64,000 bases of DNA from Hydrogenophaga flava NBRC 102514 (GTDB lineage Bacteria; Pseudomonadota; Gammaproteobacteria; Burkholderiales; Burkholderiaceae_C), in assembly GCF_001571145.1 (NCBI RefSeq), contig NZ_BCTF01000004.1, forward strand, positions 1-64,000, written 5' to 3'. The translations under genes and the position numbers were made by a program. Each line of letters begins with the position of its first letter. Positions within the stretch are counted from its first letter, which is position 1. Under the pieces are notes generated by a model. It saw nothing but the letters and a program-made list of their open reading frames with translations. It searched no databases and was not told the origin of the DNA. Of the stretch, positions 11,226-57,098 are shown piece after piece.

Positions 11226-12056
11226 ATGCCCTGGCACGCCCGTCTTTCCCTCGACTACCAGCGACACGGTGAACGCACCGTCCTGCAGCATTCGCACGAC
11301 GGCCCGCTGCGCATATTCAAGAGCCTCTACCCCGAGGGCGACGCGGTCTGCCACAACGTCATCGTGCACCCGCCAGGCGGCCTGGTCGGCGGTGATGTCC
11401 TGGACATCGACGTGCAGGTGGGCGCTGGCGCCCACGCCCTGGTCAGCACCCCCGGCGCCACCCGCTTCTACGCCAGCGACGAGGCCTTCGCCACGCAGCA
11501 GGTGCGGCTGCAGCTGGACGCGGGCGCGCGGCTGGAGTGGCTGCCGCTGGAAACCATCGCCTACCCCGGCTGCCGCGCCGACAACCGCTGGAGCGCGAGC
11601 CTGGCCGAGGGCGCCGAGCTGATGGCCTGGGACGTCACCGCACTGGGCCTGCCCGGTGCAGCCCAGCCCTATGAGCAGGGCGAGTTCCGCCAGCGGCTGG
11701 AGATTCCGGGCTGCTGGCTGGAGCAGGCGCGCATCGCTGCGCACGACCGGCGCCTGCTGGATTCGCCCCTCGGTCTGGGTGGCCGCCGCTGCCTGGGCAC
11801 GCTGGTGTTCGCCACCGGCAGCCCGCTGGCGCGCGAACGGCGCGAGCGCTTGCTGGAGGTGGTGCGCGAAGCCCTGCAGCCAGCCCCCGCCGAGGTGGTG
11901 GCCGGCGCCACCTGCCCCAACGACCGGGTGCTCGCGGTGCGCGCCGTGGCGCCGCTGGTCGAACCTCTGATGGCCTGCCTGCAGGGCGTCTGGGCGGCGC
12001 TGCGCCCGGCGGCCTGGGGATTGAGCGGCGTGGCACCCCGAATCTGGCGGGTCTGA
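11226..12056 (+). CDS. ureD: Urease accessory protein UreD
   Basis: 276 residues, normal for UreD (UreH). Visible family segments are LYPEGDAVCHNVIVHPPGG, the LVGGDVLDIDV segment, STPGATRFY and LPLETIAYPG. UreD binds apo-urease and, with UreF and UreG, passes nickel to the active site. It has no partner in the distant ureABCEFG block (50.1-57.1 kb), so this is presumably the only copy serving that enzyme. It lies 24 bases after the deaminase gene on the same strand and may be transcribed with the ABC transporter operon. Confidence 0.93.
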   Translation: MPWHARLSLDYQRHGERTVLQHSHDGPLRIFKSLYPEGDAVCHNVIVHPPGGLVGGDVLDIDVQVGAGAHALVSTPGATRFYASDEAFATQQVRLQLDAGARLEWLPLETIAYPGCRADNRWSASLAEGAELMAWDVTALGLPGAAQPYEQGEFRQRLEIPGCWLEQARIAAHDRRLLDSPLGLGGRRCLGTLVFATGSPLARERRERLLEVVREALQPAPAEVVAGATCPNDRVLAVRAVAPLVEPLMACLQGVWAALRPAAWGLSGVAPRIWRV

Positions 12057-13885: not shown

Positions 13886-14584
13886 TCAGATCGCCACCAG
13901 CTGGCGGATGTTCTTCGCCTGCATCTCAGACCCCGGCCCGCTGGCGATCACCTCGCCACGCTCCATCACCACGTACTGGTCGGCCAGCTCTTCGGCGAAG
14001 TCGTAGTACTGCTCCACCAGCACGATGGCCATGTTGCCGCGGTCGGCCAGCATGCGGATGACCTTGCCGATGTCCTTGATGATGTTGGGCTGGATGCCCT
14101 CGGTGGGCTCGTCCAGGATCAGCAGCTTGGGCCCCGCGGCCAGCGCCCGGGCAATCGCGAGCTGCTGTTGCTGACCACCCGAGAGGTCGCCGCCGCGCCG
14201 CCCCAGCATCTGCTTGAGCACCGGGAACAGCTCGAACAACTCGGCCGGAATGGGTGTGCCACCGGGCTTGTAGGCCAGGCCCATCTGCAGGTTCTCCTGC
14301 ACCGTCAGGCGGGCGAAGATCTCGCGCCCCTGCGGCACGAAGCCGATGCCGGCACGCGCCCGCTCGTAGGGCGTGGCCTTGTCGATGGCCTTGCCGTCGA
14401 AGCCGATGCTGCCGCTCTTGATGGGCACCAGGCCCATGAGGGACTTGAGCAGCGTGGTCTTGCCCACGCCGTTGCGGCCCAGCACCACCGTCACCTGGCC
14501 AAGTTCGGCCGTGAGGCTGACGTTGCGCAGGATGTGGCTGCCGCCGTAGAACTGGTTGACGTCCTTGACTTCCAGGAGGCTCAT
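13886..14584 (-). CDS. urtE: Urea ABC transporter ATP-binding subunit UrtE
   Basis: 232 residues of the LivF-like branch. Walker A GRNGVGKTT, signature DLSGGQQQQLAIARAL, Walker B LLILDEPTEGIQPNI. The GGSHILRNVSL and EGIQPNIIKDIG segments are characteristic of UrtE. Last gene of the minus-strand urtABCDE operon. A GACGGC-CCAA-GCCGTC hairpin without a T run (13860-13875) lies between it and the convergent receiver/TPR gene. Confidence 0.95.
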   Translation of the reverse strand: MSLLEVKDVNQFYGGSHILRNVSLTAELGQVTVVLGRNGVGKTTLLKSLMGLVPIKSGSIGFDGKAIDKATPYERARAGIGFVPQGREIFARLTVQENLQMGLAYKPGGTPIPAELFELFPVLKQMLGRRGGDLSGGQQQQLAIARALAAGPKLLILDEPTEGIQPNIIKDIGKVIRMLADRGNMAIVLVEQYYDFAEELADQYVVMERGEVIASGPGSEMQAKNIRQLVAI

Positions 14585-14594
14585 CGTGTTTCCT

Positions 14595-15466
<872 letters not shown>

Positions 15467-15470
<4 letters not shown>

Positions 15471-16579
15471 GCCCGGCCTCCCTTCTTGAGCTTCTTCACC
15501 AGCCCCACCACGCCCTGCGGCATCCACAGCGTCACCGCGATGAACAGCACGCCCAGGAAGTAGAGCCAGAACTCGGGGAAGGCCACGGTCAGCCAGCTCT
15601 TGGCGCCGTTGACCAGGAAAGCGCCGACGATGGGGCCGACCAGGGTGGCGCGGCCACCGACCGCCGTCCACACCGCAATCTCGATGCTGGCCGCGGTGCT
15701 CATCTCGCCCGGGTTGATGATGCCCACCTGCGGCACGTACAGCGCGCCGGCGATGCCGCACATCACGGCCGAAATCGTCCAGATGGTGAGCTTGTAGGGC
15801 AGCGGGTTGTAGCCGCAGAACATGACGCGGCTCTCCGCGTCGCGGATGGCCTGCAGCACGCGGCCGAACTTGCTGGCGACCAGCCAGCGCGCGAACACGT
15901 AGAAGCCCAGCAGCGTCAGGCCGGTGATGACGAACAGCGTCATGCGCATCTCCTGCGTCGCCAGTGGCATGCCGAGGATGCGCTTGAAGTCGGTGAAGCC
16001 GTTGTTGCCGCCCATGCCGGTCTCGTTGCGGAAGAACAGCAGCAGCGCGGCGAAGGTCAGTGCCTGCGTGATGATGGAGAAGTACACGCCCTTGATGCGC
16101 GAGCGGAAGGCGAAGTAGCCGAACACGAAGGCCACCAGGCCCGGCACCAGCACGATCAGCAGCAGCGTGGCGATGAAGCTGTCGCTCAGTGCCCAGTGCC
16201 AGGGCAGTTCCTTCCAGTCCAGGAAGACCATGAAGTCGGGCAGGTCGCTGCCGTAGTTGCCGTCGCGACCGATCTGGCGCATCAGGTACATGCCCATCAC
16301 GTAGCCGCCGAGCGCGAAGAACAGGCCGTGGCCCAGCGACAGGATGCCGGTGTAGCCCCAGATCAGGTCCATGGCCAGCGCGCAGATGGCGTAGCACATG
16401 ATCTTGCCCAGCAGGCCGACCATGTAGTCCGACAGGTGGAACACGCTGTCCGCCGGCACCAGCAGGTTGAGCGCGGGCGCCAGGGCGCAGACCACCAGCA
16501 GCGCGACCATCACGCCGCTGAAGGCCCCGCGCGTGAGCAGCGGACCGGGCGAGGGAAGAGAAATGGCGGCGGTGTTCAT
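15467..16579 (-). CDS. urtC: Urea ABC transporter permease UrtC
   Basis: 370 residues, LivM-like, about nine to ten hydrophobic segments. Characteristic pieces are CYAICALAMDLIWGYTGILSLGHG and NPGEMSTAASIEIAVWTAVGGR. The start MNTAAISLPSPG at 16579 overlaps the urtB stop by four bases (ATGA), which supports it over longer alternatives. Forms the channel with UrtB. Confidence 0.95.
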
Positions 16580-18165
16580 GCCTCGCGACCCTTGAATGCA
16601 AAGATGCCCTGCGGACGTTTCTGAATGAAGACGATGATGAAGACCAGCACCGCGATCTTGGCCAGCACGGCGCCGGCCCAGCCTTCGAGGAACTTGTTCA
16701 GCAGGCCCAGGCCCAGCGCGGCGTAGACCGTGCCGGCCAACTGCCCCACGCCGCCCAGCACCACCACCATGAAGCTGTCGACGATGTAGCTCTGGCCGAG
16801 GTCGGGGCCGACGTTGCCGATCTGGCTCAGCGCGCAACCGGCGAGACCGGCGATGCCCGAACCCAGCGCGAAGGCGTAGGTGTCGATGCGCGCGGTGTTC
16901 ACGCCCATGCAGCTGGCGATCGGCCGGTTCTGCGTCACGCCGCGCACGAACAGGCCCAGGCGCGTCTTCGAGATCAGCAGGGTCACGCCGATCAGCACCG
17001 CGGCCGCGAAGGCGATGATGAGGATGCGGTTCCAGGGCAGCGTGAGGTTGCCCAGCAGCGTGACGCTGCCGCTCATCCAGCTGGGGTTCTCCACGCCCAC
17101 GTTCTGCGCGCCGAACAGGCTGCGAACACCCTGCATCAGCACCAGAGAAATGCCCCAGGTGGCCAGCAGCGTTTCCAGCGGCCGGCCGTAGAGCCAGCGG
17201 ATCACGCTGCGCTCCATCGCAGCGCCAACCAGGGCCGAAGCGATGAAGGCCACCGGCATGGCGGCCAGCAGGTACCAGTCAAAGAAGTCGGGCAGCGTGC
17301 TCTTGAAGAAAGCCTGCACCAGCCAGGTGGCGTAGGCGCCGATCATGATCAGCTCGCCGTGCGCCATGTTGATCACGCCCATCAGCCCGTAGGTGATGGC
17401 CAGGCCCAGCGCGGCCAGCAGCAGGATGCTGCCCAGGCTGATGCCGGTGAAGGCCTGCGAGAGGCCGCTGCTGATCGCCAGCGAGCGGTCCAGTGCCGAC
17501 ATTGCGGTGCCCAGCGCGGTCTTGACCGTGGCGCTCTCTTCGGCCTCCAGCCGGGCGGCCAGCAGGGGCTTGAGCGCCGGGTCGCCCATACCACCCAGTG
17601 CCTGCGCGGCGGCCAGGCGCTGCGCCTCGTCGTCGCTGGCCAGCTGCATGGCGGCGCGCGCCAGCTCCAGGCTGGTGCGCGCCTTCGCATCGAGCGCGGT
17701 GTTGGCCAGCGCCTTGTCCACCAGGGGCAGTTGCGCGGCATCGGGCTCGTCGAACGCGGCTTTCTGCAGCATGGCGGCAGCGGCCTGCTGGGCCTGCACG
17801 TCGCTGCCGAACAGGTCGCGCACCGACAGCGCGGCTTCGAGTGCGCCGCGCAGCCGGTTGTTGACCATGGAATCTTCGGCCTCGTCGGCCAAGGTGACCG
17901 CGGCGCCGGTCACGGCGTCGGTCGCACTGCCGTCGTCGGCAATCAGCAGCACCTGCTCACCCTGCACCTTGACCGCGCCGTTGCCCAGCGCCTGCAGCAG
18001 CGCGAGCGTGCGCTCGTCGGGTTCGGCCGCCAGCCGGTTGATGGCGGCGATGCGGTCGTCGCTGTCACCCACGGCCAGCGCCAGGGCGTCGGCCGGGGTG
18101 AGGGCATGGGCACTGGCTGCGCCGATCAGGCACAACAACGCAAGAAAGGAACGCAGCCAGCGCAT
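16576..18165 (-). CDS. urtB: Urea ABC transporter permease UrtB
   Basis: 529 residues. A cleavable signal-like segment (MRWLRSFLALLCLIGAASAHA) precedes a periplasmic helical domain of about 210 residues, as is usual for UrtB; the LivH-like membrane domain starts near GISLGSILLLAALGLAITYGLMGVINMAHGE. The soluble domain makes it longer than other LivH proteins. Located between urtA (12-base gap) and urtC (overlap). Confidence 0.95.
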   Translation of the reverse strand: MRWLRSFLALLCLIGAASAHALTPADALALAVGDSDDRIAAINRLAAEPDERTLALLQALGNGAVKVQGEQVLLIADDGSATDAVTGAAVTLADEAEDSMVNNRLRGALEAALSVRDLFGSDVQAQQAAAAMLQKAAFDEPDAAQLPLVDKALANTALDAKARTSLELARAAMQLASDDEAQRLAAAQALGGMGDPALKPLLAARLEAEESATVKTALGTAMSALDRSLAISSGLSQAFTGISLGSILLLAALGLAITYGLMGVINMAHGELIMIGAYATWLVQAFFKSTLPDFFDWYLLAAMPVAFIASALVGAAMERSVIRWLYGRPLETLLATWGISLVLMQGVRSLFGAQNVGVENPSWMSGSVTLLGNLTLPWNRILIIAFAAAVLIGVTLLISKTRLGLFVRGVTQNRPIASCMGVNTARIDTYAFALGSGIAGLAGCALSQIGNVGPDLGQSYIVDSFMVVVLGGVGQLAGTVYAALGLGLLNKFLEGWAGAVLAKIAVLVFIIVFIQKRPQGIFAFKGREA

Positions 18166-18177: not shown

Positions 18178-19455
18178 TTACTTCTTCTCGGGAACGTTCT
18201 TCTTGCCCTTGTTCTCGGCGATGTAGTCGCTCCACGGATCGGCCACGACCGGACCCGGGGTCTTCCACACCACGTTGAACTGGCCGTCGGCCTTCACTTC
18301 GCCGATGAACACCGGCTTGTGCAGGTGGTGGTTTTCCTTGTCCATCGTGCTGGTGAAGCCACCCGGTGCCTTGAAGGTCTGGCCGGCCATGGCGGCGATC
18401 ACCTTGTCGGTGTCGGTGGACTTGGCCTTCTCGACGGCCTGCGCCCACATGTTGATGCCGATGTAGGTGGCTTCCATCGGGTCGTTGGTCAGCGGCTTGT
18501 CCTTGTGGCCGGCGATGTTCTTGGCCTTGGCGTACGCGCTCCACTTCTTGACGAACTCGGCGTTGGCCGGGTTCTTGATGCTCATGAAGTAGTTCCAGGC
18601 GGCGAGGTGGCCCACCAGCGGCTTGGTGTCGACACCACGCAGCTCTTCTTCACCCACCGAGAAGGCCACCACGGGCACGTCCTTGGCGGACAGGCCGGCG
18701 TTGCCCAGTTCCTTGTAGAACGGCACGTTGGAGTCGCCGTTGATGGTGGAGACCACGGCCGTCTTCTTGCCGGCGGAAGCGAACTTCTTGATGTTGGCAA
18801 TGATGGTCTGGTAGTCGGAGTGACCGAAGGGGGTGTACTCCTCCATGATGTCCTCGTCCTTCACGCCCTTGGACTTCAGGAAGGCGCGCAGGATCTTGTT
18901 GGTGGTGCGGGGGTACACGTAGTCGGTGCCCAGCAGCACCCAGCGCTTGGCGCTGCCGCCGTCCTTGCTCATCAGGTATTCGACGGCGGGGATGGCCTGC
19001 TGGTTGGGCGCAGCGCCGGTGTAGAACACGTTCTTGCTCAGCTCTTCGCCTTCGTACTGCACCGGGTAGAACAGCAGGCTGTTCTTTTCTTCAAACACCG
19101 GCAGCACCGACTTGCGGCTCACCGAGGTCCAGCAGCCGAACACGGCGGCCACCTTGTCCTGGTCGATCAGCTGCTTGGCCTTCTCGGCGAACAGCGGCCA
19201 GTTGGAGGCCGGGTCGACCACCACGGGTTCGAGCTTCTTGCCCAGCACACCGCCCTTGGCGTTGATCTCGTCGATGGCCATCAGGGCCACGTCCTTCAGC
19301 ACAGTCTCGGAAATCGCCATCGTGCCCGACAGGCTGTGCAGCACACCGACCTTGATGGTGTCGGCGGCGTGGGCGGTGAGGCCGAAGGCGCCCAGGGCGG
19401 TGGCGACCGTCAGGGCTTTGAGGGTGAATCGACGCGAGTTCTGACGTTGTTGCAT
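18178..19455 (-). CDS. urtA: Urea ABC transporter periplasmic binding protein UrtA
   Basis: 425 residues with a signal peptide (MQQRQNSRRFTLKALTVATA, ending near AHAAD). The mature part starts IKVGVLHSLSGTMAISE and contains PASNWPLFAEKAKQL and VFGCWTSVSRKSVLPVFE, classic UrtA. It binds urea or short amides in the periplasm. The ATG at 19455 has a GGAGAA site just upstream on the minus strand. First gene of urtABCDE; in many bacteria this operon is under nitrogen control, but I could not find a convincing sigma-54 promoter. Confidence 0.96.
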   Translation of the reverse strand: MQQRQNSRRFTLKALTVATALGAFGLTAHAADTIKVGVLHSLSGTMAISETVLKDVALMAIDEINAKGGVLGKKLEPVVVDPASNWPLFAEKAKQLIDQDKVAAVFGCWTSVSRKSVLPVFEEKNSLLFYPVQYEGEELSKNVFYTGAAPNQQAIPAVEYLMSKDGGSAKRWVLLGTDYVYPRTTNKILRAFLKSKGVKDEDIMEEYTPFGHSDYQTIIANIKKFASAGKKTAVVSTINGDSNVPFYKELGNAGLSAKDVPVVAFSVGEEELRGVDTKPLVGHLAAWNYFMSIKNPANAEFVKKWSAYAKAKNIAGHKDKPLTNDPMEATYIGINMWAQAVEKAKSTDTDKVIAAMAGQTFKAPGGFTSTMDKENHHLHKPVFIGEVKADGQFNVVWKTPGPVVADPWSDYIAENKGKKNVPEKK

Positions 19456-19598
19456 GGCGCTTCTCCAGGGTTCTAAAACATCCGTTGGTGGGTCTGACTT
19501 GCGCCACCTCCAAGACCTCGACGGGCTTTTCGGTGGTGTCGGACGGATGCTAGGGATACCCCTGGGAAGCGTCTGTACGCCGGGTGGCGTATGCGGGC
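19456..19598 (-). promoter_or_regulatory. urtA upstream region with candidate -10 element and hairpin
   Basis: Two things stand out. The 11-mer CGGATGCTAGG at 19544-19554 (minus strand CCTAGCATCCG, possible -10 TAGCAT) recurs exactly upstream of the Bug gene at 21954-21964. A perfect hairpin TACGCC-GGGT-GGCGTA at 19576-19591 lies eight bases past the DUF3237 stop and could separate the transcripts, though it lacks a T run. Both readings are tentative. Confidence 0.35.
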
Positions 19599-41435: not shown

Positions 41436-41454
41436 GCACGGAGCCGAAGGCCGC

Positions 41455-42591: not shown

Positions 42592-42604
42592 CTACACTGC
42601 CACG

Positions 42605-43696: not shown

Positions 43697-45490
43697 TCAA
43701 ATGCCCAAGCCCGGCCTCCAGCCAATCCCGCTCCGGGCAACAACCGCATCAGCAGGCGATATGCACTCAAGCTGAACGATCAGCGCATCAAACGTGGTTT
43801 GGCAAAGTTGTCTCTTATCGCGGTTGCTTTCATCCGGCGTGTAGCCCAAGTACTGAATCAGTTCCTTGAGCGCCTTTCCCGCCTCAACGGGAAAAGACTG
43901 CGCATAAGTGTTGAACACCTTCAAAAGTTCGGCGTGGTACTTCTCCACCATAGGAGCAAAGCTCAGACTTGCCGCATACCCGACCAGCATGGGAACATCT
44001 GCAGCCGGTATCTCCGACAACAGGCGCTGCCGGTGTAGATCCAGACATTCCTCCAGAACCCCGAGCAACTCAAGGTCAGGCTCGCAGACAAAACGACGAT
44101 TACCGTCCCAATAAGGACCTGGAACCAGAATCCTCAGGGAAAAAGAAAAATCCAGTGTTGATCCCATCCACCATGCCTGTGGAACATGGTCTTTGAGCCG
44201 ATCGTTCACACAGTCGCGGAACAACCCAATCGCTTCGGTGCGAAGCGGACTGCCGCGCTCGGCGTAGTACGCAAGATGTGTCAGCGCTGAGCACCGGTCA
44301 TGGACGGCTGCACCACCGGGCCCAAGCAGCAGATTCCGATATGCGGTCAACACCTCCTGCCAGTAGGCATCGCTGGGATTGCCACAACGAAGCAGGATCT
44401 CCAAGGACGAAAAAGCGCTCGGCATGTCCTCGTCCACGCCCTCGCGAAGAACCCATTCGGACAAATGCTGGCATGCACCGTCCAAGAAGGTCCGGAGCGC
44501 CCCGCGCGCTTCGTGAGGTGCATCCTGGATAGACCGGTCGGCTGCGTCAATCGATTCGCGCAACATCTCTTCTGCAAACAGCTTGCGCTTCTCCTTCAAC
44601 TTCAATGCCAGCCGAAACGTTGACTCCGGATCGCTCTTGTAGACGCTGGACAACGCCTTCTCATGACGATTGGGACCTCGCGTCCAGTATTCATCGATCA
44701 CCTTTGCTGCTTGCTCAACATCGTCCTCTGCGCACCGCAACAAAAGGGGCCAGACATGCCCCTTGAGATCGTTGAAGCAGGGGTGCAATTGGTGTGAGTG
44801 GCCTGTCGCCTTTTCCAGAAGAATGAGTGCCAACAACCTCTCGAGCAAGTGTTGCGCAGGTGTCCCGCGACTTTTCAGGCAAACCGCCATTAAGTCGAAT
44901 TGATCTTTTTCAAACGCACCTTTGTTATCTGGCTCGATGGATATCCGCAACGACCGGAAGAAATACAAAACGCCCAGCATCACATCGGCTTGCTGCTGAG
45001 CATCCAAAAGCCGGTGGAGCCGCCTTAAAAAACGGGTTCGTTGCCACGCAGCCAGACGCGTATCGCCCCACGCTAGTAGCTTTGCCACCCTCCCCATGGC
45101 GAGAATGTTCAAACCGGGTTGAGGTGCAGGGACTCCGTGCTTCTGCTCGTACATCCAGCCAAAGTACTTACGGTTCCACAGCAGCAGGGCGCTTTGGGAA
45201 AACACGTTGGGCTTCCTGAGCAGCTCAAAACGCTGCCTGCCGTGCCATTCAGCCAGATTTACTAGCACCCTTTTTTCTGCATCCGTGGCTTGGGCAAACA
45301 GGCTGTTGCGGCGCGCCATCCAGCCGAACCGCTCTGGCGAGTCTTTCAAGTTCGGAGGAAGAAAGGCGTTTTCTGGCAGTGAGGACAAGTGCGGCTCCCG
45401 AAGTCGGAGCTCGCCAGGTGTAGACGCCTCCTGTTCAACTGCGGGCGATGATAGTTCGCCGGTGTTCTTGACCTCAGGCTTACCCTCCAC
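43697..45490 (-). CDS. Unknown protein, lower GC, third gene of the permease-kinase operon
   Basis: 597 codons in an uninterrupted frame; I do not recognise the family. The protein is mostly alpha-helical and rich in Leu, Arg and Trp, with no signal peptide, membrane segment or catalytic motif I can name. By hand count GC is 50% in 43801-43860 and 42% in 44881-44940, well below the roughly 68% of neighbours, which suggests transfer. A GTG start at 45490 overlaps the LuxR-regulator stop by 11 bases; a later start at the MARRNSLFAQ segment (about residue 58) is possible. The overlap suggests it is co-expressed with the two signalling genes upstream. Confidence 0.7.
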   Translation of the reverse strand: MEGKPEVKNTGELSSPAVEQEASTPGELRLREPHLSSLPENAFLPPNLKDSPERFGWMARRNSLFAQATDAEKRVLVNLAEWHGRQRFELLRKPNVFSQSALLLWNRKYFGWMYEQKHGVPAPQPGLNILAMGRVAKLLAWGDTRLAAWQRTRFLRRLHRLLDAQQQADVMLGVLYFFRSLRISIEPDNKGAFEKDQFDLMAVCLKSRGTPAQHLLERLLALILLEKATGHSHQLHPCFNDLKGHVWPLLLRCAEDDVEQAAKVIDEYWTRGPNRHEKALSSVYKSDPESTFRLALKLKEKRKLFAEEMLRESIDAADRSIQDAPHEARGALRTFLDGACQHLSEWVLREGVDEDMPSAFSSLEILLRCGNPSDAYWQEVLTAYRNLLLGPGGAAVHDRCSALTHLAYYAERGSPLRTEAIGLFRDCVNDRLKDHVPQAWWMGSTLDFSFSLRILVPGPYWDGNRRFVCEPDLELLGVLEECLDLHRQRLLSEIPAADVPMLVGYAASLSFAPMVEKYHAELLKVFNTYAQSFPVEAGKALKELIQYLGYTPDESNRDKRQLCQTTFDALIVQLECISPADAVVARSGIGWRPGLGI

Positions 45491-46526
45491 GCGGCTGGAG
45501 CAACGGCACCCGGTTGATCGCCATCGCCGCCGCCGCGGTGCGCGTCTCCACGCCCAGCTTGGCGTGGATGCGCTCCAGGTGCTTCTTCGCCGTCGCCGGG
45601 CTCGACCCGAGGATGTCGCCGATGTCGCGGTTGATCTTGCCCTTGACCACCCAGTACAGCACCTCGGCCTCGCGCGCGGTGAGGCCGAAGGCCTGGGCCA
45701 GGGCTTCGAGCACGGCGGCGTCCGAGGTTTCCTGCATCACGATCAGCCAGTCGCCCGGTTCGCCCTGGGCTTCGTCCTCGTCGCCGATCTGCTGGTGCAG
45801 GCGGAAGCTCAGGCGGCGCGGCCCCTGGTCGATGGTCAGGCGCGGCGGCTCGCGCAGTGGCTGGCCCGGCGCGGGCGGCGCAGCGAACTCGGGCAGCAGG
45901 CGCAACAGGCGATCGAGCCACTCCAGCACCGGCGCGGGTGTGACCGGCGACTCGGTGCCGAAGTAGCGCTGCAGCAGGTCGCGCGCCAGCGGCGTCTGCC
46001 ACATCAGGCGGCCGTCGCGCGCGCGCACGGTGATGGTGGCGTAGCCGAAGGCGTCGAGCGCGTTGCGCGCCTGGCTGCGTTCGAGCGCGCCCTGGCGGCT
46101 CTGGCGCGACTGGCGCAGGTGCACGCCCATGCGCGCCATCACCTCGCGCGGCTTGATCGGCTTGGTGACATAGTCCACACCGCCCGCCTCCAGTGCGGCC
46201 ACCAGGTGCTCGGTCTCGGTCAGTCCCGTCATGAACAGGATGGGGATGTGCGCCGTCGCCGGGTCGGCCTTGAGGCAGCGCGCCACCTCGAAGCCGTCGA
46301 GACCGGGCATCACCGCGTCCAGCAGCACCACGTCGGGCAGGGCCTGGCGCGCACGGCGGATCGCGGCCTCGCCGTCCAGCGCCACCAGCACGGTGTAGCC
46401 GGCGTCGTCCAGCGCGTCGTGCAGCGGCGCGACGTTGTCGGGCACGTCGTCGACGATCAGCACCACCGCACCGGGTTCGGCGGCCAGCGGGGCGTCGGGG
46501 GAGGGGTGGTCGGGCGAGCGGATCAT
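45480..46526 (-). CDS. LuxR-type response regulator
   Basis: 348 residues. The receiver domain is residues about 20-135 with Asp26-Asp27, phosphoacceptor Asp70 (VVLLDAVMPG), Thr100 and Lys122. A middle segment of about 130 residues has no assignable domain. The LuxR HTH is at about 276-340 (LTAREAEVLYWVVKGKINRDIGDILGSSPATAKKHLERIHAKLGV). The start overlaps the stop of the permease-kinase gene by four bases, so it is the obvious partner of that kinase. Confidence 0.93.
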   Translation of the reverse strand: MIRSPDHPSPDAPLAAEPGAVVLIVDDVPDNVAPLHDALDDAGYTVLVALDGEAAIRRARQALPDVVLLDAVMPGLDGFEVARCLKADPATAHIPILFMTGLTETEHLVAALEAGGVDYVTKPIKPREVMARMGVHLRQSRQSRQGALERSQARNALDAFGYATITVRARDGRLMWQTPLARDLLQRYFGTESPVTPAPVLEWLDRLLRLLPEFAAPPAPGQPLREPPRLTIDQGPRRLSFRLHQQIGDEDEAQGEPGDWLIVMQETSDAAVLEALAQAFGLTAREAEVLYWVVKGKINRDIGDILGSSPATAKKHLERIHAKLGVETRTAAAAMAINRVPLLQPRGG

Positions 46527-49500
46527 GCGGTGCGGTCGGAAGAAGCCTGGCCCGCGCCCAGCGGCAGCAGGCGCTGTTCGATGGCCTCAAAGCGGAACTC
46601 GCGCGCCAGGGCGCGCAGCGTATCGGCAAACGCCGCCTGCTCGGGGTGGTCGGCCACCCAGTGGTCGAGCCAGCGCATCACGCCCTTGGCGTAGCCCAGG
46701 CGCACCAGCTCCAGCAGCGGCGAGAAGTCGTGTGCGGCGGGTGGCGGCGCCACAGCGGCGGGCGTGGTCACGGTGGGCGGGGCCTCGGCCGCCACCGGCG
46801 CGTGCACCCAGCGCAGGCCCAGCTGCTGCTGCAGCCAGCCGGTGAGGTCGTCGCGCCGCACCGGCTTGACGAAGAAGGCCTGGTCGGCGGGGCGGCCGTC
46901 GGCGGCGTCGGCCTGCAGCCCCTTGTCGAACGCGTTGGCCGAGACCACGGCCATCGGTACCGACGACCAGCCCGCGGCGCGCAACCGGCGCAGCGTCTCC
47001 CAGCCGTCGATGCCGGGCATGGCCAGGTCCATGAAGACCGCGTGCGGCGCGCGTTCGCTGCCCGGCGCCACGCCGTCGAGCAGGGCCAGCGCGTCGTGGC
47101 CGCTGGTGGCCATCAGCACCTCGAAGCCCAGCGGCTGCAGCCAGCGCGCGATCAGCTCGCGGTCGCTCTCTTCGTTGTCCACCACCAGCACGCGCCGGCG
47201 CGGGCCCTCGTAACCGGTCACAGGCGCCGCCACCGCGGCCGGGCGCGTGGCCGCGCCGTGCAGCGCCGGCAGGAACAGGCGCACGCTGAACACCGTGCCC
47301 TGGCCCGGCGCACTGCGCACCGTCATCTCGCCGCCCATCAGGTCGGTCAGCATCTTGGCAATCGTCAGGCCCAGACCGGTGCCGCCGCCCGCCGCCGCCG
47401 AGCCGCCCTCGGCCTGCTGCCCGCGCGCGAAGGGCTCGAACACGCGGTCCAGCTCGGCGGTGGTCATGCCCGGCCCGGTGTCGCTGACCTCGAACACCGC
47501 CATCTCGCGCGCATGGGACACCTTCAGCCGCACCTCGCCCGCGCGCGTGAACTTCACCGCGTTGCCCAGCAGGTTGATGAGGATCTGGCGCAGCCGCTTC
47601 TCGTCGGCGCGCACCGCCTCGGGCAGACGGGGCCCCGGCTCGAACACGAAGCGCAGGCCCTTGGCCGCCGCCTGCAGCTCGAACATGCTGGCCACCTCGC
47701 GCACCGTGTCGGCGAAGGCCATGGGCTTCACGTCCAGCTGCAGCTTGCCCGACTCGATGCGCGCGATGTCCAGCGTGCCCTCGATCAGCGAGAGCAGGTG
47801 CTCGCCGCCGCGGTGGATCACGCGGATCGCCTGCGCGCGGTGCGGCGCCAGCTCGCGGTCTTCCTGCAGCAGCTGGGCGTAGCCGAGGATGCTGTTGAGC
47901 GGCGTGCGCAGCTCGTGGCTGATGGTGCTGATGTAGCGGCTCTTGGCCTGGTTGGCCTGATCGGCGACCTCGCGCGCACGCTGTAGCTGCTCATCGGTGC
48001 GGCGGTGCGATTCGATCTCCTGCATCAGCAGCCGCGTCTGGCGGTTGGATTCCTCCTGCGCGACCTCGCGGCTCTTGTGCGCCAGCACCAGCCACCAGGC
48101 CACCGTGGCCGCGATCAGCAGCAGCACCGCGTAGACCCGCAGGAAACCCGAGCGCAGCGCGGCGTCGAGCAAGCCCACATCGCCCACCGCGGCGATGCCC
48201 TGGTCCAGTCCCTCGACCTGCTGGCGGTACAGCAGCCCGAGCACGGCCGCCAGCACCGGCGCGATCACCAGCATCAGCAGCAGGTAGTGCGCGAGACCAG
48301 CTTCCAGATAAGGCCAGACGCGCTGCGGCAGCACCGTGCGCAGCGCCGACTGCCACTGCACCGACAGCCGCGCGTGCGGCTTGCACAGGTCGCCGCAGCG
48401 CGCGTCCAGTGTGCAGCAGAGCGAGCAGATGGGGCCCTGGTAGGCGGGACAGTGGGCCATGTCGGGGCCTTCGTAGTCGCGTTCACAAATCGAACACCGC
48501 TGAACGGACAGGCGTTGGTAGGTGCCGGTGTCTTCTTTTCGCGCTAGGTAGTAGCGTCCCTTGGTCGCCCACGCGATCAGCGGCGCCGTCACCAGCGCCG
48601 TCACCATCGCGATCACGGCCGAGAAGGCCTGCGCGCCCGCGCCCATCAGGCCCATGTGCGCCGCGATCGACAGCACCGAGGCCAGTCCCATGGCGCCCAC
48701 GCCCACCGGGTTGATGTCGTAGAGGTGCGCGCGCTTGAACTCGATGCCTTTGGGGCTCCAGCCCAGCGGCTTGTTGATCACCAGGTCGGCCACCACCGCC
48801 ATGATCCAGGCGATGGCGATGTTGCTGTAGAGCCCAAGCACCTCGCCCAGCGCGCGGAACACCTCCATCTCCATCAGCATGAAAGCGATCAGCGTGTTGA
48901 ACACCACCCAGACCACGCGGCCGGGGTGGCTGTGGGTCAGGCGCGAGAAGAAGTTGCTCCAGGCCAGCGAGCCGGCGTAGGCGTTGGTGACGTTGATCTT
49001 GAGTTGCGAGACCACGACGAACAGCGCCGTCGCCGCCACCGCCCAGCCGTAGTTCGGGAACACGTACTCGTAGGCCGCGAGGTACATCTGGTTCGGGTCG
49101 ACCGCGCGGTCGGTGGGCACCATATGACTGATCGCCAGGTAGGCCAGGAGCGCGCCGCCCAGCATCTTGAGCACACCCAGCAGCACCCAGCCCGGCCCGC
49201 CGGCCAGCACGCCGGCCCACCAGCGCAGGGGCTTGCCCGGCTGCCGCGCGGGCATGAAACGCAGGTAGTCGGCCTGCTCGCCCATCTGCGTGATGAGCGC
49301 GATGCCCACCGTCAGCGCCGCACCAAACAGGTGCCAGTCAAACACCCGGCCTGCACCAGTTTCGCCCCCGTAATGCACCACATTGGAAAACGCACCCGGA
49401 TCGAGCGCCCAGACCGCCACGAAGGGCACGACCATCATCACCAGCCACAGCGGCTGGGTCCAGACCTGGAAGCGGCTGATGATGGACACGCCGTAGGTCA

Positions 49501-50008
49501 CCAGCGGAATCACCACCAGGGCGCAGATCAGGTAGCCCCAGGCGGGCGGGATGTCCAGCGCCAGGTCCAGCGCGTAGGCCATCACCGCCGCCTCCAGCGC
49601 AAAGAAGATGAAGGTGAAACTGGCGTAGATCAGCGAGGTGATGGTCGAGCCGATGTAGCCGAAGCCGGCACCGCGGGTGAGCAGGTCCATGTCGACGCCG
49701 TAGCGCGCGGCATAGACGCTGATCGGCAGGCCGGCCAGGAAGATGATCAGCCCGGTGGCGAGGATGGCCCAGAAGGCGTTGACAAAGCCGTACTGCACCA
49801 GCAGGGTGGCGCCCACCGCTTCGAGGATCAGGAACGAGGCCGCGCCGAACGCCGTGTTCGCCACCCGCCATTCGCTCCACTGGCGGAAGCGCTGCGGCGT
49901 AAAGCGCAGCGCGTAGTCCTCCATGGTCTCGCGGCCGACCCAGCTGTTGTAGTCGCGGCGCACCTTGATGATGCGCTGGGGTGGGGCTGGATCAGGCTGG
50001 ACGTTCAC
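46523..50008 (-). CDS. NCS1 nucleobase permease fused to hybrid histidine kinase
   Basis: 1161 residues. Residues 1-490 form an NCS1 (cytosine/purine/allantoin) permease with about twelve membrane segments. Residues 505-545 are a Cys-rich module with Cys505, 508, 520, 528, 531, 532, 538, 542 and His545, enough for two metal sites. Two more membrane helices (about 566-594 and 622-643) and a coiled coil lead to HisKA with His698 (ISHELRTPL), an ATPase domain (Asn816, DTGPGM 843-848, GTGLGL) and a receiver with Asp994 (VFMDLAMPG). A helical tail of about 100 residues ends it. GTG start. It looks like a transporter turned sensor (or transporting sensor) for a nucleobase or ureide. Divergent from ureA with an 84-base gap and coupled to the LuxR regulator, so control of urease is plausible. 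Confidence 0.93.
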
Positions 50009-50092
50009 CTGCAGGATTTCGCAGCTTTCATGCCACCAGCCACCAGGGCACGGGTTTTGCTCAACCCTCTTTCAGATCATCCGAGACCCGCC
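50009..50092. promoter_or_regulatory. Divergent gap between the permease-kinase gene and ureA
   Basis: 84 bases holding the start signals of both units. No clear -35/-10 pair, palindrome or terminator could be picked out; the region should hold the ureA promoter and any LuxR-regulator site. Confidence 0.35.
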
Positions 50093-50395
50093 ATGGAACT
50101 GACCCCGAGAGAAAAAGACAAGCTGCTGATCTTCACCGCCGCCCTGCTGGCCGAGCGGCGCAAGGCGCGGGGCCTCAAGCTGAACTACCCGGAAGCCGTG
50201 GCCCTGATCAGCGCCGCCGTGATGGAAGGGGCCCGCGACGGCAAGACCGTCGCCCAGTTGATGAGCGAAGGCCGCACCGTGCTCACGCGCGACGACGTGA
50301 TGGAGGGCGTGCCCGAGATGATTCCCGACATCCAGGTCGAAGCCACCTTCCCGGACGGCACGAAGCTGGTCACCGTTCACACTCCGATCAGTTGA
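50093..50395 (+). CDS. ureA: Urease gamma subunit UreA
   Basis: 100 residues, the standard length. The pattern [39 protein letters not shown] is that of UreA. Structural subunit of the nickel urease together with UreB and UreC. First gene of the urease block, but without ureD beside it. Followed directly by a GC-rich repeat element. Confidence 0.96.
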
Positions 50396-50473
50396 CCCCC
50401 CCGCGCCGCGCTGCGCGCGTCACCCCCCAGGGGGCGGCGCTGGCGGCCCGGCAAAGCCGGTTCCGCGGCGCCC
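50396..50473. repeat. GC-rich intergenic hairpin repeat, copy B
   Basis: Starts at the ureA stop. Shares CCCCCCAGGGGG, GCGGCCCGGC-AAGCCGG and TTCCGCGG with copy A at 29045. Several small hairpins can form (for example CCGGCAAAGCCGG). It may reduce read-through or protect the ureA message. Confidence 0.75.
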
Positions 50474-50515
50474 TTGAATCAGACATTTCGCTCCAACGCA
50501 CTTGCAGAGGTTCCC

Positions 50516-51107
50516 ATGAAACGAATCGTCAAGACCCTTTTATCCGCCGCACTGGCCACCACCGCCCTCGCCGCCCAGGCCCACACCGGCCACGGCACCA
50601 GCAGCCTGATGGAAGGCCTGGCCCACCCCTTCGGCCTGGACCACCTGTTGGCCATGGTGGCCGTGGGCGTGTGGTCGGTCTCGGCCCTGCCGGCGGGCAA
50701 GGCCTGGCAAGGCCCCGCGACCTTCCTGCTGGCGCTGGTACTCAGCGCCTTGGCCGGCACCATGGGCCTGACCCTGCCCTATCTGGAACAGGGTGTCGCG
50801 CTGTCGGTGGTGCTGTTCGGGCTGATGCTGGCCATCGCCACCCGGCCCCTGCCGCCGGCCGTGGGCCTGGGGCTGATCGCCATGGCGTCCGCGCTGCACG
50901 GCATCGCCCACGGCTCGGAGACGCCCGCCACCGGCTTCGCCGGCTACGCCTCGGGCTTCCTGCTCACCACCGCCGCCCTGCACATCGGTGGCGTGGGCGT
51001 GGGTCTGGCTGTCCGGCGCCTGTTCAGCGAACGCCGGGGCGTGGCCCTGGGGGGGCCTGGGCGCAGCGCTCGGCGGCGCCGGCCTGTACCTGTTTGCCCA
51101 ACTCTGA
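50516..51107 (+). pseudogene. ureJ: HupE/UreJ family nickel permease, frameshifted near the 3' end
   Basis: A signal peptide ([22 protein letters not shown]) and the HupE/UreJ nickel-binding segment [18 protein letters not shown] are clear, followed by hydrophobic segments. At the seven-G run 51049-51055 the frame goes wrong: the intact frame gives [19 protein letters not shown] and stops at 51121 inside ureB. With one G fewer it reads [16 protein letters not shown] and stops at 51105-51107, 10 bases before ureB, exactly as expected for the family. So this is either a sequencing error, a recent mutation or a slippage-variable gene. Between ureA and ureB it would supply nickel for urease. Confidence 0.8.
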
Positions 51108-51117
51108 GCACCGCGCC

Positions 51118-51426
51118 ATGACCCCCGGCGAATACCTGATCGACGAGGGCGAACACGCCCTCAACCCCGGCCGCGCCACGCTGACCCTGGTGGTGCAAAA
51201 CACCGCCAACCGCCCGGTGCAGGTCGGTTCGCACTACCACTTTGCCGAGACCAATGCGGCCCTGTCCTTCGACCGCGCCGCCGCGCAGGGCAAGCGCCTG
51301 AACATCGCCAGCGGCACCGCGGTGCGCTTCGAGCCGGGCCAGCAGCGCACGGTGGAGCTGGTGGATTTCGCGGGCGACCGTGTCGTGTACGGCTTCCGCG
51401 GCCTGATCCAGGGTCCGCTGGTCTGA
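51118..51426 (+). CDS. ureB: Urease beta subunit UreB
   Basis: 102 residues, standard length. [19 protein letters not shown] and [18 protein letters not shown] are typical UreB segments. Ends three bases before the convergent lipoprotein gene, which separates it from ureC. Confidence 0.96.
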
Positions 51427-51429
51427 GCC

Positions 51430-53385: not shown

Positions 53386-55104
53386 ATGGCCAGCATTCCC
53401 AAACGCGCCTATGCCGACATGTTCGGCCCCACCGTCGGCGACCGCGTGCGCCTGGCCGACACCGGCCTGATCATCGAGGTCGAGAAGGACTTCACCCTGG
53501 CCGCGGGCGGCTACGGAGAAGAAGTGAAATTCGGCGGTGGCAAGACCATCCGCGACGGCATGGCGCAATCGCAACGCACGCGCGCCGAGGGCGCGGTGGA
53601 CACGGTGCTGACCAATGCCCTCATCGTCGACCACTGGGGCATCGTCAAGGCCGACATCGGCCTCAAGGACGGCCGCATCGTCGCCATCGGCAAAGCCGGC
53701 AACCCGGACACGCAACCCGGTGTGGACATCGTCATCGGTGCCGGCACCGAGATCATCAGCTGCGAGGGGAACATCGTCACCGCCGGTGGCATCGACAGCC
53801 ACATCCACTTCATCTGCCCGCAGCAGGTGGACGAGGCCCTGGCCTCGGGCGTGACCACCATGCTCGGCGGCGGCACCGGCCCGGCCACCGGCACCTTCGC
53901 CACCACCTGCACGCCCGGCCCCTGGCACATCGAACGCATGCTGCAGGCGGCCGACGGCCTGCCGATGAACATCGGCTTCCTGGGCAAGGGCAACGCCAGC
54001 CGGCCGGCCCCGCTGCGCGAGCAGATCGACGCCGGCGTGATCGGCCTCAAGCTGCACGAAGACTGGGGCACGACGCCCAGCGCCATCAGCAACTGCCTGG
54101 ACGTGGCCGAAGAAACCGATACGCAGGTCGCGATCCACTCCGACACGCTCAACGAGTCGGGCTTTGTGGAAGACACCATCGCGGCCACCAAGGGCCGCAC
54201 GCTGTGCGCCTTCCACACCGAAGGCGCGGGCGGCGGCCACGCGCCCGACATCATCCGCGTGGTCGGCGAGGCCAACTTCCTGCCCTCGTCCACCAACCCG
54301 ACCATGCCCTACACCGTCAACACGCTCGACGAACACGTCGACATGCTGATGGTCTGCCACCACCTGGACGCGTCAATTCCCGAGGACCTGGCCTTTGCCG
54401 AAAGCCGCATCCGCCGCGAGACGATTGCGGCCGAGGACATCCTGCACGACCTGGGCGCGATCAGCATCATGAGCAGCGACAGCCAGGCCATGGGGCGCGT
54501 GGGCGAGGTGGTGATCCGCACCTGGCAGACGGCTGACAAGATGAAGTCGCAGCGCGGCTCGTTGCCGGAAGACAGCAGCCGCAACGACAACTTCCGTGTC
54601 AGGCGCTACATCGCCAAGTACACGATCAACCCCGCCATCGCGCACGGCATCTCGCACATCGTCGGCTCGCTCGAAGTCGGCAAGTGGGCCGATCTGGTGA
54701 TCTGGAAGCCGGCCTTCTTCGGCGTCAAGCCGGCGCTGGTGCTCAAGGGCGGCAGCATCGCCCTGGCCGCCATGGGCGACCCGAACGCCTCCATCCCCAC
54801 ACCGCAGCCGGTGCACTACCGCCCGCAGTTCGGCGCCCTGGGCAGCGCGCTCGCCAGAGGCAGCCTGAGCTTCGTGTCGCAGGCCGCGCAGGCAGCGGGC
54901 GTCGCCCAGCGCTACGGTCTGGCCAAGACCACCGTGGCGGTGCAGCACTGCCGTGGCGTGACCAAGGCGAGCATGGTGCACAACAGCTACCTGCCGGTGA
55001 TGGAGATCGACCCGCAGCGCTACACCGTGCGCGCCGACGGCGTCCTGCTGACCTGCGAGCCCGCCAGCAAACTTCCGATGGCGCAGCGATACTTCCTGTT
55101 TTGA
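53386..55104 (+). CDS. ureC: Urease alpha subunit UreC (catalytic)
   Basis: 572 residues, full length. Nickel ligands His139 and His141 (DSHIHF), carbamylated Lys222 (GLKLHEDWG), His251, His277 and Asp365 (SSDSQAMGR) and the flap Cys324-His325-His326 (MVCHHLD) are all present, so the enzyme should be active. The ATG at 53386 gives the usual [20 protein letters not shown] start. Because the lipoprotein gene is antisense between ureB and ureC, ureCEFG may use its own promoter in 53200-53385, a stretch with lower GC but no clear boxes. Confidence 0.97.
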
Positions 55105-55124
55105 TAGCAAAACAGGGAAGTTCC

Positions 55125-55712
55125 ATGCTTCAAGTCTCCAAACTCGTCCCCCAGGGCAAGGGGCTGGCACCGGTGCTGGTGCGCCGCGCCGCCACCGTCA
55201 CGCTGGACTGGGATGTGCGCCAGAAAAGCCGCTTCGACGCCGAGTCGTCGGACGGTCGCCGTGTCGGCGTGTTCCTGCCGCGCGGCACCGTGGTGCGCGG
55301 GGGTGACGTGCTGATCACGCAGGACGGTTCGCTGCTGCGAGTGGTGGCCGCACCGCAACCGGTGCTGCGCATCACCGCCTGCACCGACCACCACCACGGC
55401 CATGACCACGACTCTGCCTTTGACCTGATGCGCGCGGCCTACCACCTGGGCAACCGCCACGTGCCCATCGAGCTGCGGCCCGACCACCTGAAGATCGAAC
55501 CCGACCATGTGCTGGCCGACATGCTGCGCGCCATGCACCTGAACGTGGCCGAGGTGCGCGAGTCTTTCGAGCCCGAGGGCGGCGCCTACGCAGCGGGCCA
55601 TGGACACGGCCACCACCAGGGCGGTGACCACGGCCACAGCCATGGCCACGATCACCATGGACACGACCATGGTCACGGCCACCACCCCGCGCATGCCCAC
55701 GACCACGGCTGA
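55125..55712 (+). CDS. ureE: Urease accessory protein UreE, long His-rich tail
   Basis: 195 residues. The N-terminal peptide-binding domain and the metal-binding domain ([33 protein letters not shown]) precede a tail in which 18 of the last 37 residues are His. UreE is the nickel metallochaperone that hands nickel to UreG, and the tail should bind several nickel ions. It starts 20 bases after ureC and its last 20 bases overlap ureF. Confidence 0.94.
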
Positions 55713-56409
55713 CGCACCGGCCAGCGTGGCGGCGGGCCTGCTGCACACGCTCTGGCTCGCCTCGCCGGCCCTGCCGGTTGGCGGCTTCTCTTATTCCGAA
55801 GGACTGGAAGCGGCGGTGGACGCCGGGCTGGTGCACGACGAGGCCAGCGCCGCCGGCTGGCTCACCGACCAGCTGCAGCTCTCGCTCGCTCGCAGCGACC
55901 TGGCGGTGGTGGCACAGGCCATTCCCGCCTGGCGCGCGGATGATCTGGCCCGAATCCGCGCGCTCAATGAATGGGTGCTGGCCACCCGCGAGACGCAGGA
56001 GTTCCGCCTGCAGACCGAGCAGATGGGCCGCTCGCTGCAGGCCTGGGCGCAGTCGCTCGGTGCGCTCGGGGGCGATGTGCTGCAACGCCTGCAGGCCGCC
56101 GACCTGCAGCCGCCCGCCTACCCGGTCGCCATGGCCTGCGCCGCCGCAGCCTCAGGCGCTGCCCTGGCCGACAGCCTGGCCGGCTTCGCCTTCGGCTGGG
56201 CCGAGAACATGGTGCAGGCGGCCATCAAGTCGGTGCCGCTGGGCCAGAGCGCGGGCCAGCGCATGCTGGCGCGCCTGGTGGCCGACATCCCCGCCGCCGT
56301 GGCCCACGCGATGGCGCTGGGCGACGAGGACCGCCAAGCCTTCACGCCCCTGCTCGCCATCCTCAGCGCGCGCCACGAAACCCAGTACTCCCGCCTGTTC
56401 CGATCCTGA
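55693..56409 (+). CDS. ureF: Urease accessory protein UreF
   Basis: 238 residues, all-helical. [32 protein letters not shown] is the UreF signature, with [25 protein letters not shown] near the end. Works with UreD and UreG as the urease maturation complex. The ATG at 55693 overlaps the ureE tail by 20 bases; earlier in-frame starts lie inside the His-rich coding region and give a low-complexity leader. Confidence 0.93.
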
Positions 56410-56420
56410 AGACGCAAACG

Positions 56421-57098
56421 ATGACCGCCCTGCACCACATCCCCCACCGCACCAAGACCCTGCCCCCGCTGCGCGTGGGCATCGGCGGCCCGGTCGGCTC
56501 CGGCAAGACCACGCTGCTTGAAATGCTGTGCAAGACCATGCGCGAGCGCTACGACCTGGTCGCCATCACCAACGACATCTACACGAAGGAAGACCAGCGC
56601 CTGCTCACCGTCAGTGGCGCGCTGCCGGCCGAACGCATCATGGGCGTGGAAACCGGCGGCTGCCCCCACACCGCCATCCGCGAGGACTGCTCGATCAACC
56701 TCGAAGCCATCGACCGCATGCTGGGCGAGTTCCCGAACGCCGACATCGTGTTCGTGGAGTCTGGCGGCGACAACCTCGCCGCCACCTTCAGCCCCGAACT
56801 GAGCGACCTGACGATCTACGTGATCGACGTGGCCGCGGGCGAGAAGATCCCGCGCAAGGGCGGCCCCGGCATCACCAAAAGCGACCTGTTCGTCATCAAC
56901 AAGACCGACCTGGCCCCGCACGTCGGCGCCGACCTGGAGGTGATGAAGCAGGACACCGCGCGCATGCGGCCGGACACCGCGCGCAAGCCCTGGGTGATGA
57001 CCAACCTCAAGACCCTGGACGGCGTACAGGACGTGGTGCGCTTCATCGAGCAGCGCGGCATGCTGGCCCCAGCCACCCCGGCAGGCACCCCGACCTGA
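56421..57098 (+). CDS. ureG: Urease accessory GTPase UreG
   Basis: 225 residues. P-loop [11 protein letters not shown], the nickel-binding Cys-Pro-His in [20 protein letters not shown] and the guanine-specificity NKTD motif. It couples GTP hydrolysis to nickel transfer into urease. Last gene of the ureCEFG run, followed 32 bases later by a tRNA gene. Confidence 0.97.

Follow-up and report, generated by a model that had tools for sequence, protein, structure and literature searches.

The window analysed here, a stretch of 64,000 nucleotides from Hydrogenophaga flava NBRC 102514 (contig NZ_BCTF01000004.1), carries a gene whose product joins a transporter-like permease, a cysteine-rich module and a hybrid histidine kinase in a single chain, and which lies back to back with the urease gene ureA. 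We propose that this protein is probably a receptor for urea or short amides that was derived from a urea/amide permease and acts mainly on the urt uptake genes.

An earlier note on this DNA, made from the letters alone, had read the chain as permease, cysteine module, HisKA with His698, ATPase and receiver with Asp994, and this reading is confirmed by the open reading frame (ORF), by Pfam domains and at the exact residues named (Table 1). All the features of a hybrid histidine kinase are present, including the HisKA histidine, the HATPase_c domain, the receiver aspartate and an adjoining regulator gene, and Pfam found no PAS domain in the window's fusion protein. The guanine-cytosine (GC) content at the three codon positions of the ORF (0.70/0.47/0.93) follows the pattern of a genuine gene. 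Long relatives were found across many genomes, which rules out an assembly artefact as the origin of the fusion. The position beside ureA, likewise described earlier, is correct.

Genes near the fused copies were sought with a query panel of proteins from annotated plasmid records (Urt, FmdA/FmdB, amidases, Ure and the regulator). Places with a frame of at least 700 amino acids were counted as fused, together with one place (L220) whose frame opens badly at the start of the match. Outgroup or weak permeases (L228-L231) and matches below the identity thresholds were kept out of the counts, and the neighbourhood sample excludes some places, such as G025, G082, G091, G102, G118, G164, G233, G306, G413, G954, G1067, G1072, G1074, G1163 and G1167. 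Genes of the ure, urt or formamidase/amidase type lie near 90 of the 106 fused places in whole-genome stretches (87/100 where at least 3 kb upstream was available), near 74 of the 82 in genome contigs close to the window (66/68 with at least 3 kb upstream) and near 9 of the 10 on plasmid records. The regulator gene comes next in 93/106, 77/82 and 10/10 of these places, respectively. As a control in the window's own genome, none of 65 other kinase or receiver matches falls within 10 kb of ureC or urtA, the nearest being 10.3 kb from ureC; the loci used for this comparison are the only ureC and urtA loci found there. The same genome gave no match to formamidase. These observations support a real link between the fusion and urea genes, which the earlier note had made the test of its proposal among relatives.

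The nature of the ligand is best approached through relatives that lack the kinase. Thirteen such permeases were found, with frames of 542-627 amino acids and 44-54% identity to the permease part of the fusion. Seven reside beside urease genes (L147, L253, L306-L310) and five beside formamidase/amidase genes (L153 of a Methylovirgula plasmid, L254, L303-L305), and the remaining one (L151) faces a fused copy divergently and has neither kind of gene in reach. At three places in genus g458 (L311, L312, L262), urtABCDE runs divergently from the fused gene and its regulator, and fmdA is in reach; at three others (L303, L304, L305), a permease-fmdA-fmdB-amidase operon takes that divergent position. 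A member of another family (L254) also has a fused gene divergent from an operon of the permease-formamidase type. In g458, the kinase-free permease stands in for the Urt ABC importer. What speaks most strongly for recognition of urea or small amides by the permease part is this replacement of urtABCDE by the kinase-free permease in the same operon setting.

A tree places all 122 fused copies in one clade (support 0.928), and the kinase-free copies form two clades outside it, one of eight that are mostly urease-linked and one of five that are formamidase-linked; the root of this tree is a single distant outgroup (L228) with a long branch. A single fusion event is therefore likely. Three positions separate the two groups: Glu63 is present in 122/122 aligned fused copies and in 0/13 kinase-free ones, position 62 is Asp in 13/13 kinase-free copies and Leu in 110/122 fused ones, and position 345 in transmembrane helix (TM) 8 is Ser in 13/13 kinase-free copies and Ala in 121/122 fused ones. 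In an AlphaFold2 (AF2) model, helix 1 is broken at residue 59, where LeuT-fold proteins have their binding centre. The exchanges at residues 62, 63 and 345 are a sign, though no proof, that the receptor changed its coupling. A fuller scenario, to which we give slightly less than even credence, is that a membrane urea/amide receptor arose once from an unrecognised NCS1-related family of urea/short-amide permeases with a cysteine-rich tail, when a kinase was fused on and the acidic residues that follow the TM1 break were exchanged (Asp62 in the transporters, Glu63 in the receptors). Several genomes would then have the two paralogues back to back, and the receptor would use a single conserved operator to switch on either the transporter paralogous to it or the Urt ABC importer, to which it is unrelated.

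These residue differences bear on whether the fusion protein is still an active importer of urea or amides that signals through transport, as a strict transceptor comparable to CbrA with histidine. We regard this as an appreciable possibility, well short of even. The permease part is complete and well conserved, at the level of identity to kinase-free copies given above, and CbrA is reported to retain transport (PMC7096432). However, Glu63, the residue at position 62 and Ala345 distinguish fused from kinase-free proteins as if the coupling of ion or substrate had been altered, and the ammonium sensor Ks-Amt5 is described as binding its ligand without translocating it (PMC5764959).

The permease part was classified by way of a free-standing relative and by its fold. 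In residues 1-660, Pfam reports no family at E<=1, the gathering score of PF02133 (NCS1) not being reached, and searches of the part against Pfam, NCBIfam and PDB sequences gave nothing useful; the kinase-free proteins L147 and L153_2 have no PF02133 match even at E<=10. Homology to NCS1 proteins runs instead through L228, a free-standing protein of another genome that scores 36.4 bits against the PF02133 cut-off of 23.5. Residues 27-499 of the fusion align with L228 by BLASTP at 28% identity over 493 amino acids (E 3e-38), and a profile comparison of the permease part with L228 gives E 9.5e-34. The AF2 model of the permease, built from 45 sequences (predicted local distance difference test (pLDDT) score 70.1, predicted template-modelling (pTM) score 0.71), allows for 12 membrane helices as far as residue 481. 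Foldseek places Mhp1/CodB structures at ranks 1-5 (E 7.4e-7 to 1.4e-5), with the SLC5 urea transporter DUR3 at rank 33 (E 9.3e-4) and the SLC5 members NIS and SiaT also below the NCS1 proteins. Among the folds listed by VIA-align, CodB (Z 30.5, root-mean-square deviation 3.8, 389 residues aligned) and Mhp1 (Z 27.5) precede the first non-NCS1 fold, ApcT (Z 25.2). Because of the homology to L228 and of the nearest folds, Mhp1 and CodB, the permease part is, by sequence and predicted fold, a divergent NCS1 relative, and the NCS1-type permease that had been proposed for residues 1-490 holds even though Pfam has no match to it. No SLC5 or STAC domain was matched by Pfam in residues 1-660, the presence of a STAC model in the library being unconfirmed.

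The earlier note put forward a purine, allantoin or hydantoin as the possible ligand, with an effect on urease expression; the permease part would then resemble characterised NCS1 proteins in what it recognises, and urease would stand at the end of purine breakdown. The nearest solved folds do belong to a hydantoin (Mhp1) and a cytosine (CodB) transporter, one kinase-free relative is annotated 'allantoin permease', and the regulator gene at L267 adjoins a gene for a NupC nucleoside transporter. Nevertheless, we consider this explanation very unlikely. The Pfam NCS1 model misses the two fused and two complete kinase-free proteins that were scanned, the recurrent neighbours are urt, urease, formamidase and amidase genes, and the kinase-free relatives reside in urease and formamidase operons. 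Beside the fusion, the annotated plasmid records examined show no recurring gene of purine or hydantoin breakdown (uricase, allantoinase or hydantoinase), although the query panel contained none of these and the search was thus not systematic for them. Allantoin as the ligand, suggested by the record name of the kinase-free relative, was set aside on the operon evidence.

The cysteine module follows the permease, with cysteines at 505, 508, 520, 528, 531, 532, 538 and 542. Eight cysteines had been predicted within residues 505-545 together with one histidine, and the cysteine count proved right whereas two histidines are present (519 and 545). The spacing is retained in 192/192 fused ORFs checked. 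The complete module also occurs in the five kinase-free permeases of the formamidase-linked clade, and the eight copies of the other clade carry a four-Cys form. Because 5/13 kinase-free permeases have the complete module and 8/13 the four-Cys form, it is no special joint between permease and kinase; the earlier description of the module as such a joint holds for its location only. In 100 genomes of the order Burkholderiales, a 60-residue stretch around the cysteines gave 21 matches, 18 of them in members of the family and the other three (E 0.005-0.009) in frames that are short or interrupted, and in the window's own genome it matched only itself. Modelled separately with the helices that follow it, the module reaches a pLDDT of 80.7. 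Given 12 membrane helices, the module would lie in the cytoplasm, and the two extra helices would return the kinase to that side.

An input through this module, in which it senses metal or redox state (nickel for urease, or zinc) and the permease serves as a scaffold, is in our view quite unlikely. The fixed spacing of the eight cysteines in all fused ORFs would fit such a role, as would the four-Cys form found in most kinase-free copies, and the model bears a likeness, weak and insignificant, to RING/PHD/FYVE fingers (Foldseek best E 0.94; VIA Z ~2.7-3.4). However, five permeases without any kinase carry the complete module, formamidase/urt loci that lack urease presumably need no nickel for that enzyme, and cross-brace fingers are usually structural. 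Zinc at the module is a guess; in a single kinase-free copy, Pfam Zn_ribbon_11 overlaps the module at E 0.29.

A candidate operator for the partner regulator was found. Sixty divergent intergenic regions were examined, in which the fused gene faces urtA (55) or a kinase-free permease (5). The palindrome TACGTCA-N2-TGACGTA, at no more than 2/14 mismatches, is present in 38/60 of these regions (0.1% of shuffles), and many of the others, mostly of other classes, have TACGC..GCGTA forms. Among relatives of the window's own clade, TACGCC-N4-GGCGTA occurs at <=1 mismatch within 400 bp upstream of urtA in 25/25 loci with urtA in reach, and 23 of these sites are exact; over 1.46 Mb of window-clade loci there are 47 sites at <=1 mismatch vs 2 in shuffled sequence. 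The window itself contains one exact copy, upstream of urtA, and a second TACGCC site with 2 mismatches at 35310. Its gap between ureA and the kinase gene has no operator (TACGTCA form at <=3 mismatches, TACGCC form at <=2). Across 72 kinase-ureA gaps, that of the window included, 33 have a near-operator at <=2/12 mismatches vs 1.0 expected from shuffles, and some relatives may therefore regulate ureA directly.

The half-sites of the palindrome were compared with the presumed recognition helix of the regulator; 10 of the 60 loci, without a usable site or helix, were left out. With the helix PRTVN (32 loci), the letters that follow TACG are mostly TCA (38) or TCG (11) of 64 half-sites. With PRTVD or PRTVT (13 loci), they are mostly CAA (10) or CGA (6) of 26, and a single PRTIN locus has CAA/CAT half-sites, contrary to the rule. 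In the window clade, the helix P(A/M)T(V/I)K (74 loci) accompanies TACG-CC sites upstream of urtA; the window's own regulator has PATAK. This pattern is suggestive of half-site and helix varying together. For a comparison among genomes, we examined the best 30 urtA loci of 81 genomes with a match, leaving out one (G131) at a contig edge. An intact TACG-N8-CGTA stands upstream of the best-matching urtA in three of five window-clade genomes with the fusion (G000 and G049 with the TACGCC form, G111 with another centre), in 0/19 genomes without the fusion and in 0/5 with a fusion of the amide clade.

The palindrome might instead belong to another regulator, such as a general nitrogen regulator, with the partner regulator acting elsewhere. 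This is unlikely in our estimation, even though the window's copy is 26 kb from the regulator gene and LuxR-type regulators can have many targets. In many relatives the palindrome stands between the fused gene and its divergent partner, whether this is urtA or a kinase-free permease; it varies with the recognition helix of the regulator, and it is not intact upstream of urtA in any of the 19 genomes examined without the fusion.

The promoters in the kinase-ureA gap point to a second layer of control. GGCAYG-N4-YTGC occurs twice in the 64 kb window (chance mean 2.75), and both copies are inside this 84-bp gap, one per strand. In the 72 gaps, a sigma-54-like site was counted at 10 or more of the 12 consensus positions. 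Such sites are present on the kinase strand in 63/72 gaps (0.5 in shuffles), the window's own copy falling below that score, and on the ureA strand in 64/72, the window among them (0.8 in shuffles). At loci of the formamidase/urt type, they are directed toward the kinase gene in 22/56 (0.7 expected) and toward the divergent gene in 3/56 (0.6 expected). LuxR-type regulators are not known to open sigma-54 promoters unaided, so that general nitrogen control of ureA is probable and the partner regulator would act elsewhere or serve as a modulator. The earlier suggestion that the fusion may set urease expression therefore needs to be revised, since the ureA promoter is sigma-54-like, the regulator is LuxR-type and the likely site is upstream of urtA. 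In Burkholderia cenocepacia, urease and urt genes are reported to be NtrC-dependent (PMC5491218).

The analysis shows the architecture of the protein, its gene linkage, kinase-free relatives in the same operons, and a conserved operator that varies along with the recognition helix. From these a mechanism can be sketched, in which we infer what the ligand is, which way the switch works, how phosphate travels, that NtrC takes part and that this regulator binds this operator. Urea (or formamide or acetamide) would bind in the LeuT-fold permease part, and the resulting conformational change would pass through the cysteine module and the two extra helices to the HisKA/ATPase core. Phosphate would move from His698 to the LuxR-type partner, with Asp994 as an internal relay or sink, and the phosphorylated partner would bind the TACG..CGTA palindrome and activate uptake genes. 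In many relatives the target would be the operon that faces the kinase gene, of the urtABCDE-formamidase or the permease-formamidase kind; in this genome it would be urtABCDE, which lies at a distance. Both the kinase gene and ureA, with their sigma-54-type promoters, would probably be expressed under nitrogen limitation via NtrC.

Several observations weigh against a urea/amide receptor that acts on urt genes. The linkage counts include near relatives, and the events they record are not independent. No urea or amide gene was found in the stretch examined at 16 of the 106 fused places, 13 of which had at least 3 kb upstream. The exceptions include a member that adjoins draT and divergent nifHDK (L154), one beside hrpA (L164), two longer members (L180, and L181 with nadA) and others at L158, L255-L257 and L264, in addition to the nupC neighbour of the regulator gene at L267. 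The ligand is suggested by neighbours that handle both urea and amides, and hybrid kinases often need a histidine phosphotransfer (Hpt) protein. As for the operator, five intergenic regions (L209, L211, L214, L263, L316) have no convincing palindrome, it is absent upstream of urtA in two of the five window-clade fusion genomes (G047 and G091), and the correspondence between helix and operator largely tracks clades and includes near relatives, so that it is no independent proof.

The family is widespread in Proteobacteria. Residues 1-660 were matched in 38 of 200 genomes of the order (E<=1e-5), with weak permease matches only in G027 and G156 and a partial one in G164, and in 54 of 398 genomes of the phylum (E<=1e-10), where G368 and G425 are weak or short. 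In PLSDB, 548 plasmid records match (E<=1e-5), of which a few are plain permeases, 505 span 80% or more of the query and 342 are from Klebsiella. The closest named relatives are from Hydrogenophaga, with up to 93% identity in the best segment. In the annotated records examined, the family bears solely kinase-type names, such as 'ATP-binding protein', 'hybrid sensor histidine kinase/response regulator' or 'ArcB'. A distant member (L148, 45% identity) is found with urtABCDE and formamidase on a Klebsiella plasmid, near the heat-resistance genes clpK/hsp20. The architecture also varies in length: L180 (9480-13670, 1396 amino acids) and L181 (9483-13604, 1373 amino acids) are longer members, the latter with two receiver stretches and an Hpt domain, and two shorter ones that adjoin fmdA and fmdB (L223, 885 amino acids; L227, 883) apparently end after the ATPase part, without a receiver, as read from sequence and length.

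Table 1. Coordinates of the fusion gene, its parts and related features in the window.
Feature	Position	Strand	Remarks
Permease-histidine kinase-receiver fusion gene	46523..50008	(-)	1161 aa, GTG start, ORF open throughout
Permease part, residues 1-490	48539..50008	(-)	Predicted 12 helices, NCS1-related LeuT fold; Glu63 after TM1 break
8-Cys module, residues 505-542	48383..48496	(-)	C-x2-C-x11-C-x7-C-x2-C-C-x5-C-x3-C
Two extra helices, modelled residues 570-604 and 611-659	48074..48301 (coordinates to residue 645)	(-)	AF2 models
HisKA, residues 688-754, phospho-acceptor His698	47747..47947	(-)	Pfam
HATPase_c, residues 802-913	47270..47605	(-)	Pfam
Response_reg (receiver), residues 940-1056, Asp994	46841..47191	(-)	Pfam
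Partner response regulator: receiver (Asp70) and LuxR-type helix-turn-helix	45480..46526	(-)	Pfam; 4 bp overlap with end of kinase gene
Predicted operator of response regulator, TACGCC-N4-GGCGTA palindrome	19576..19591	.	Exact; 120 bp upstream of urtA start, 26 kb from regulator gene
Sigma-54-like promoter toward kinase gene, GGCATGAAAGCTGC	50021..50034	(-)	Pattern match; below score of 72-gap survey
Sigma-54-like promoter toward ureA, GGCACGGGTTTTGC	50047..50060	(+)	Pattern match; counted in 72-gap survey
ureA (urease gamma)	50093..50395	(+)	Divergent from fusion gene, 84 bp from GTG
ureJ (HupE/UreJ)	50474..51121	(+)	Match
ureB (urease beta)	51118..51426	(+)	Match
ureC (urease alpha)	53386..55104	(+)	Match
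ureE, ureF, ureG matches	55125..57074	(+)	Match
ureD-like gene, remote	11226..12056	(+)	tblastn 32.5% over 286 aa
urtA	18178..19455	(-)	Start at 19455
urtB, urtC, urtD, urtE	13886..18165	(-)	Match

The surroundings of the fusion gene have features of their own. The ureD-like gene is ~38 kb away from ureAJBCEFG (50093-57074), with urtABCDE (13886-19455) in between. A 589-amino-acid gene with DUF5648 (PF18885, E 4.5e-39) on the minus strand (51430-53199) separates ureB from ureC, a gap that is at most 179 bp in 67 of the 69 contigs holding both genes and ~1.38 kb in L044 and L055. An ORF of 597 amino acids (43697-45490, minus strand) follows the regulator gene immediately downstream; it has no Pfam or NCBIfam match and a third-position GC of 0.63 vs ~0.9 for most window genes, and looks recently acquired. 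The region 27860-43684 seems to serve sugar-acid catabolism, to judge from its TRAP and TctC solute-binding proteins, enolase-family proteins, galactarate dehydratase and L-talarate/galactarate dehydratase.

Our literature search, which left most subscription journals outside, found no description of an NCS1-kinase fusion or of a urea-sensing kinase. Mhp1 and CodB are the solved structures nearest to the window's permease, to which L228 provides the link by homology. The window's permease differs from them in lacking a PF02133 match, in its fusion to a kinase, in its cysteine tail and in its urea/amide gene context. The operons for UrtABCDE and for FmdA/FmdB-amidase are neighbours and predicted targets that encode uptake and breakdown, whereas the window protein would be the sensor. 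In yeast, Snf3/Rgt2 and Ssy1 are transporter paralogues turned receptors that control the genes of the working transporter; here, by contrast, receptor and kinase form one chain, in a bacterial host.

Among histidine kinases, the SLC5/STAC proteins CbrA, CrbS and RpuS carry a transporter domain fused to the N-terminus (PMC13022988, PMC7096432, PMC9100948, PMC5715377), and CrbS and RpuS are drawn beside LuxR-family regulators (PMC9100948). The window protein shares with them a secondary-transporter domain N-terminal to the kinase and, with CrbS and RpuS, a LuxR-family regulator alongside. It differs in being related to NCS1 rather than SLC5 by fold rank, in having the 8-Cys module and two helices in the place of STAC, and in its predicted ligand, urea or small amides. 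No NCS1, nucleobase or urea terms were found in the CbrA and S-component papers searched. Ks-Amt5 is likewise a transporter for a nitrogen compound reused as the receptor of a histidine kinase, with a binding site described as different from that of uptake proteins (PMC5764959), but it has an Amt domain, and both the compound and the family are different. A LuxR-family two-component pair is named beside a second urtABCDE operon in Ectopseudomonas guguanensis (PMC13296017), and GrtK of Burkholderia glumae is described as an ammonia sensor (PMC12918730). The window protein is to be grouped with the transporter-fused histidine kinases, apart from the SLC5/STAC kinases.

Urea and small amides are major nitrogen sources. 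UreR and AmiC are known intracellular regulators that respond to urea or amides, and we know of no membrane urea receptor coupled to a bacterial kinase. The analysis predicts a family of urea/amide permeases that the Pfam NCS1 model misses. Derived, as proposed, from one ancestor, the fused and kinase-free proteins would constitute a natural transporter/receptor pair with which to ask which residues convert one into the other.

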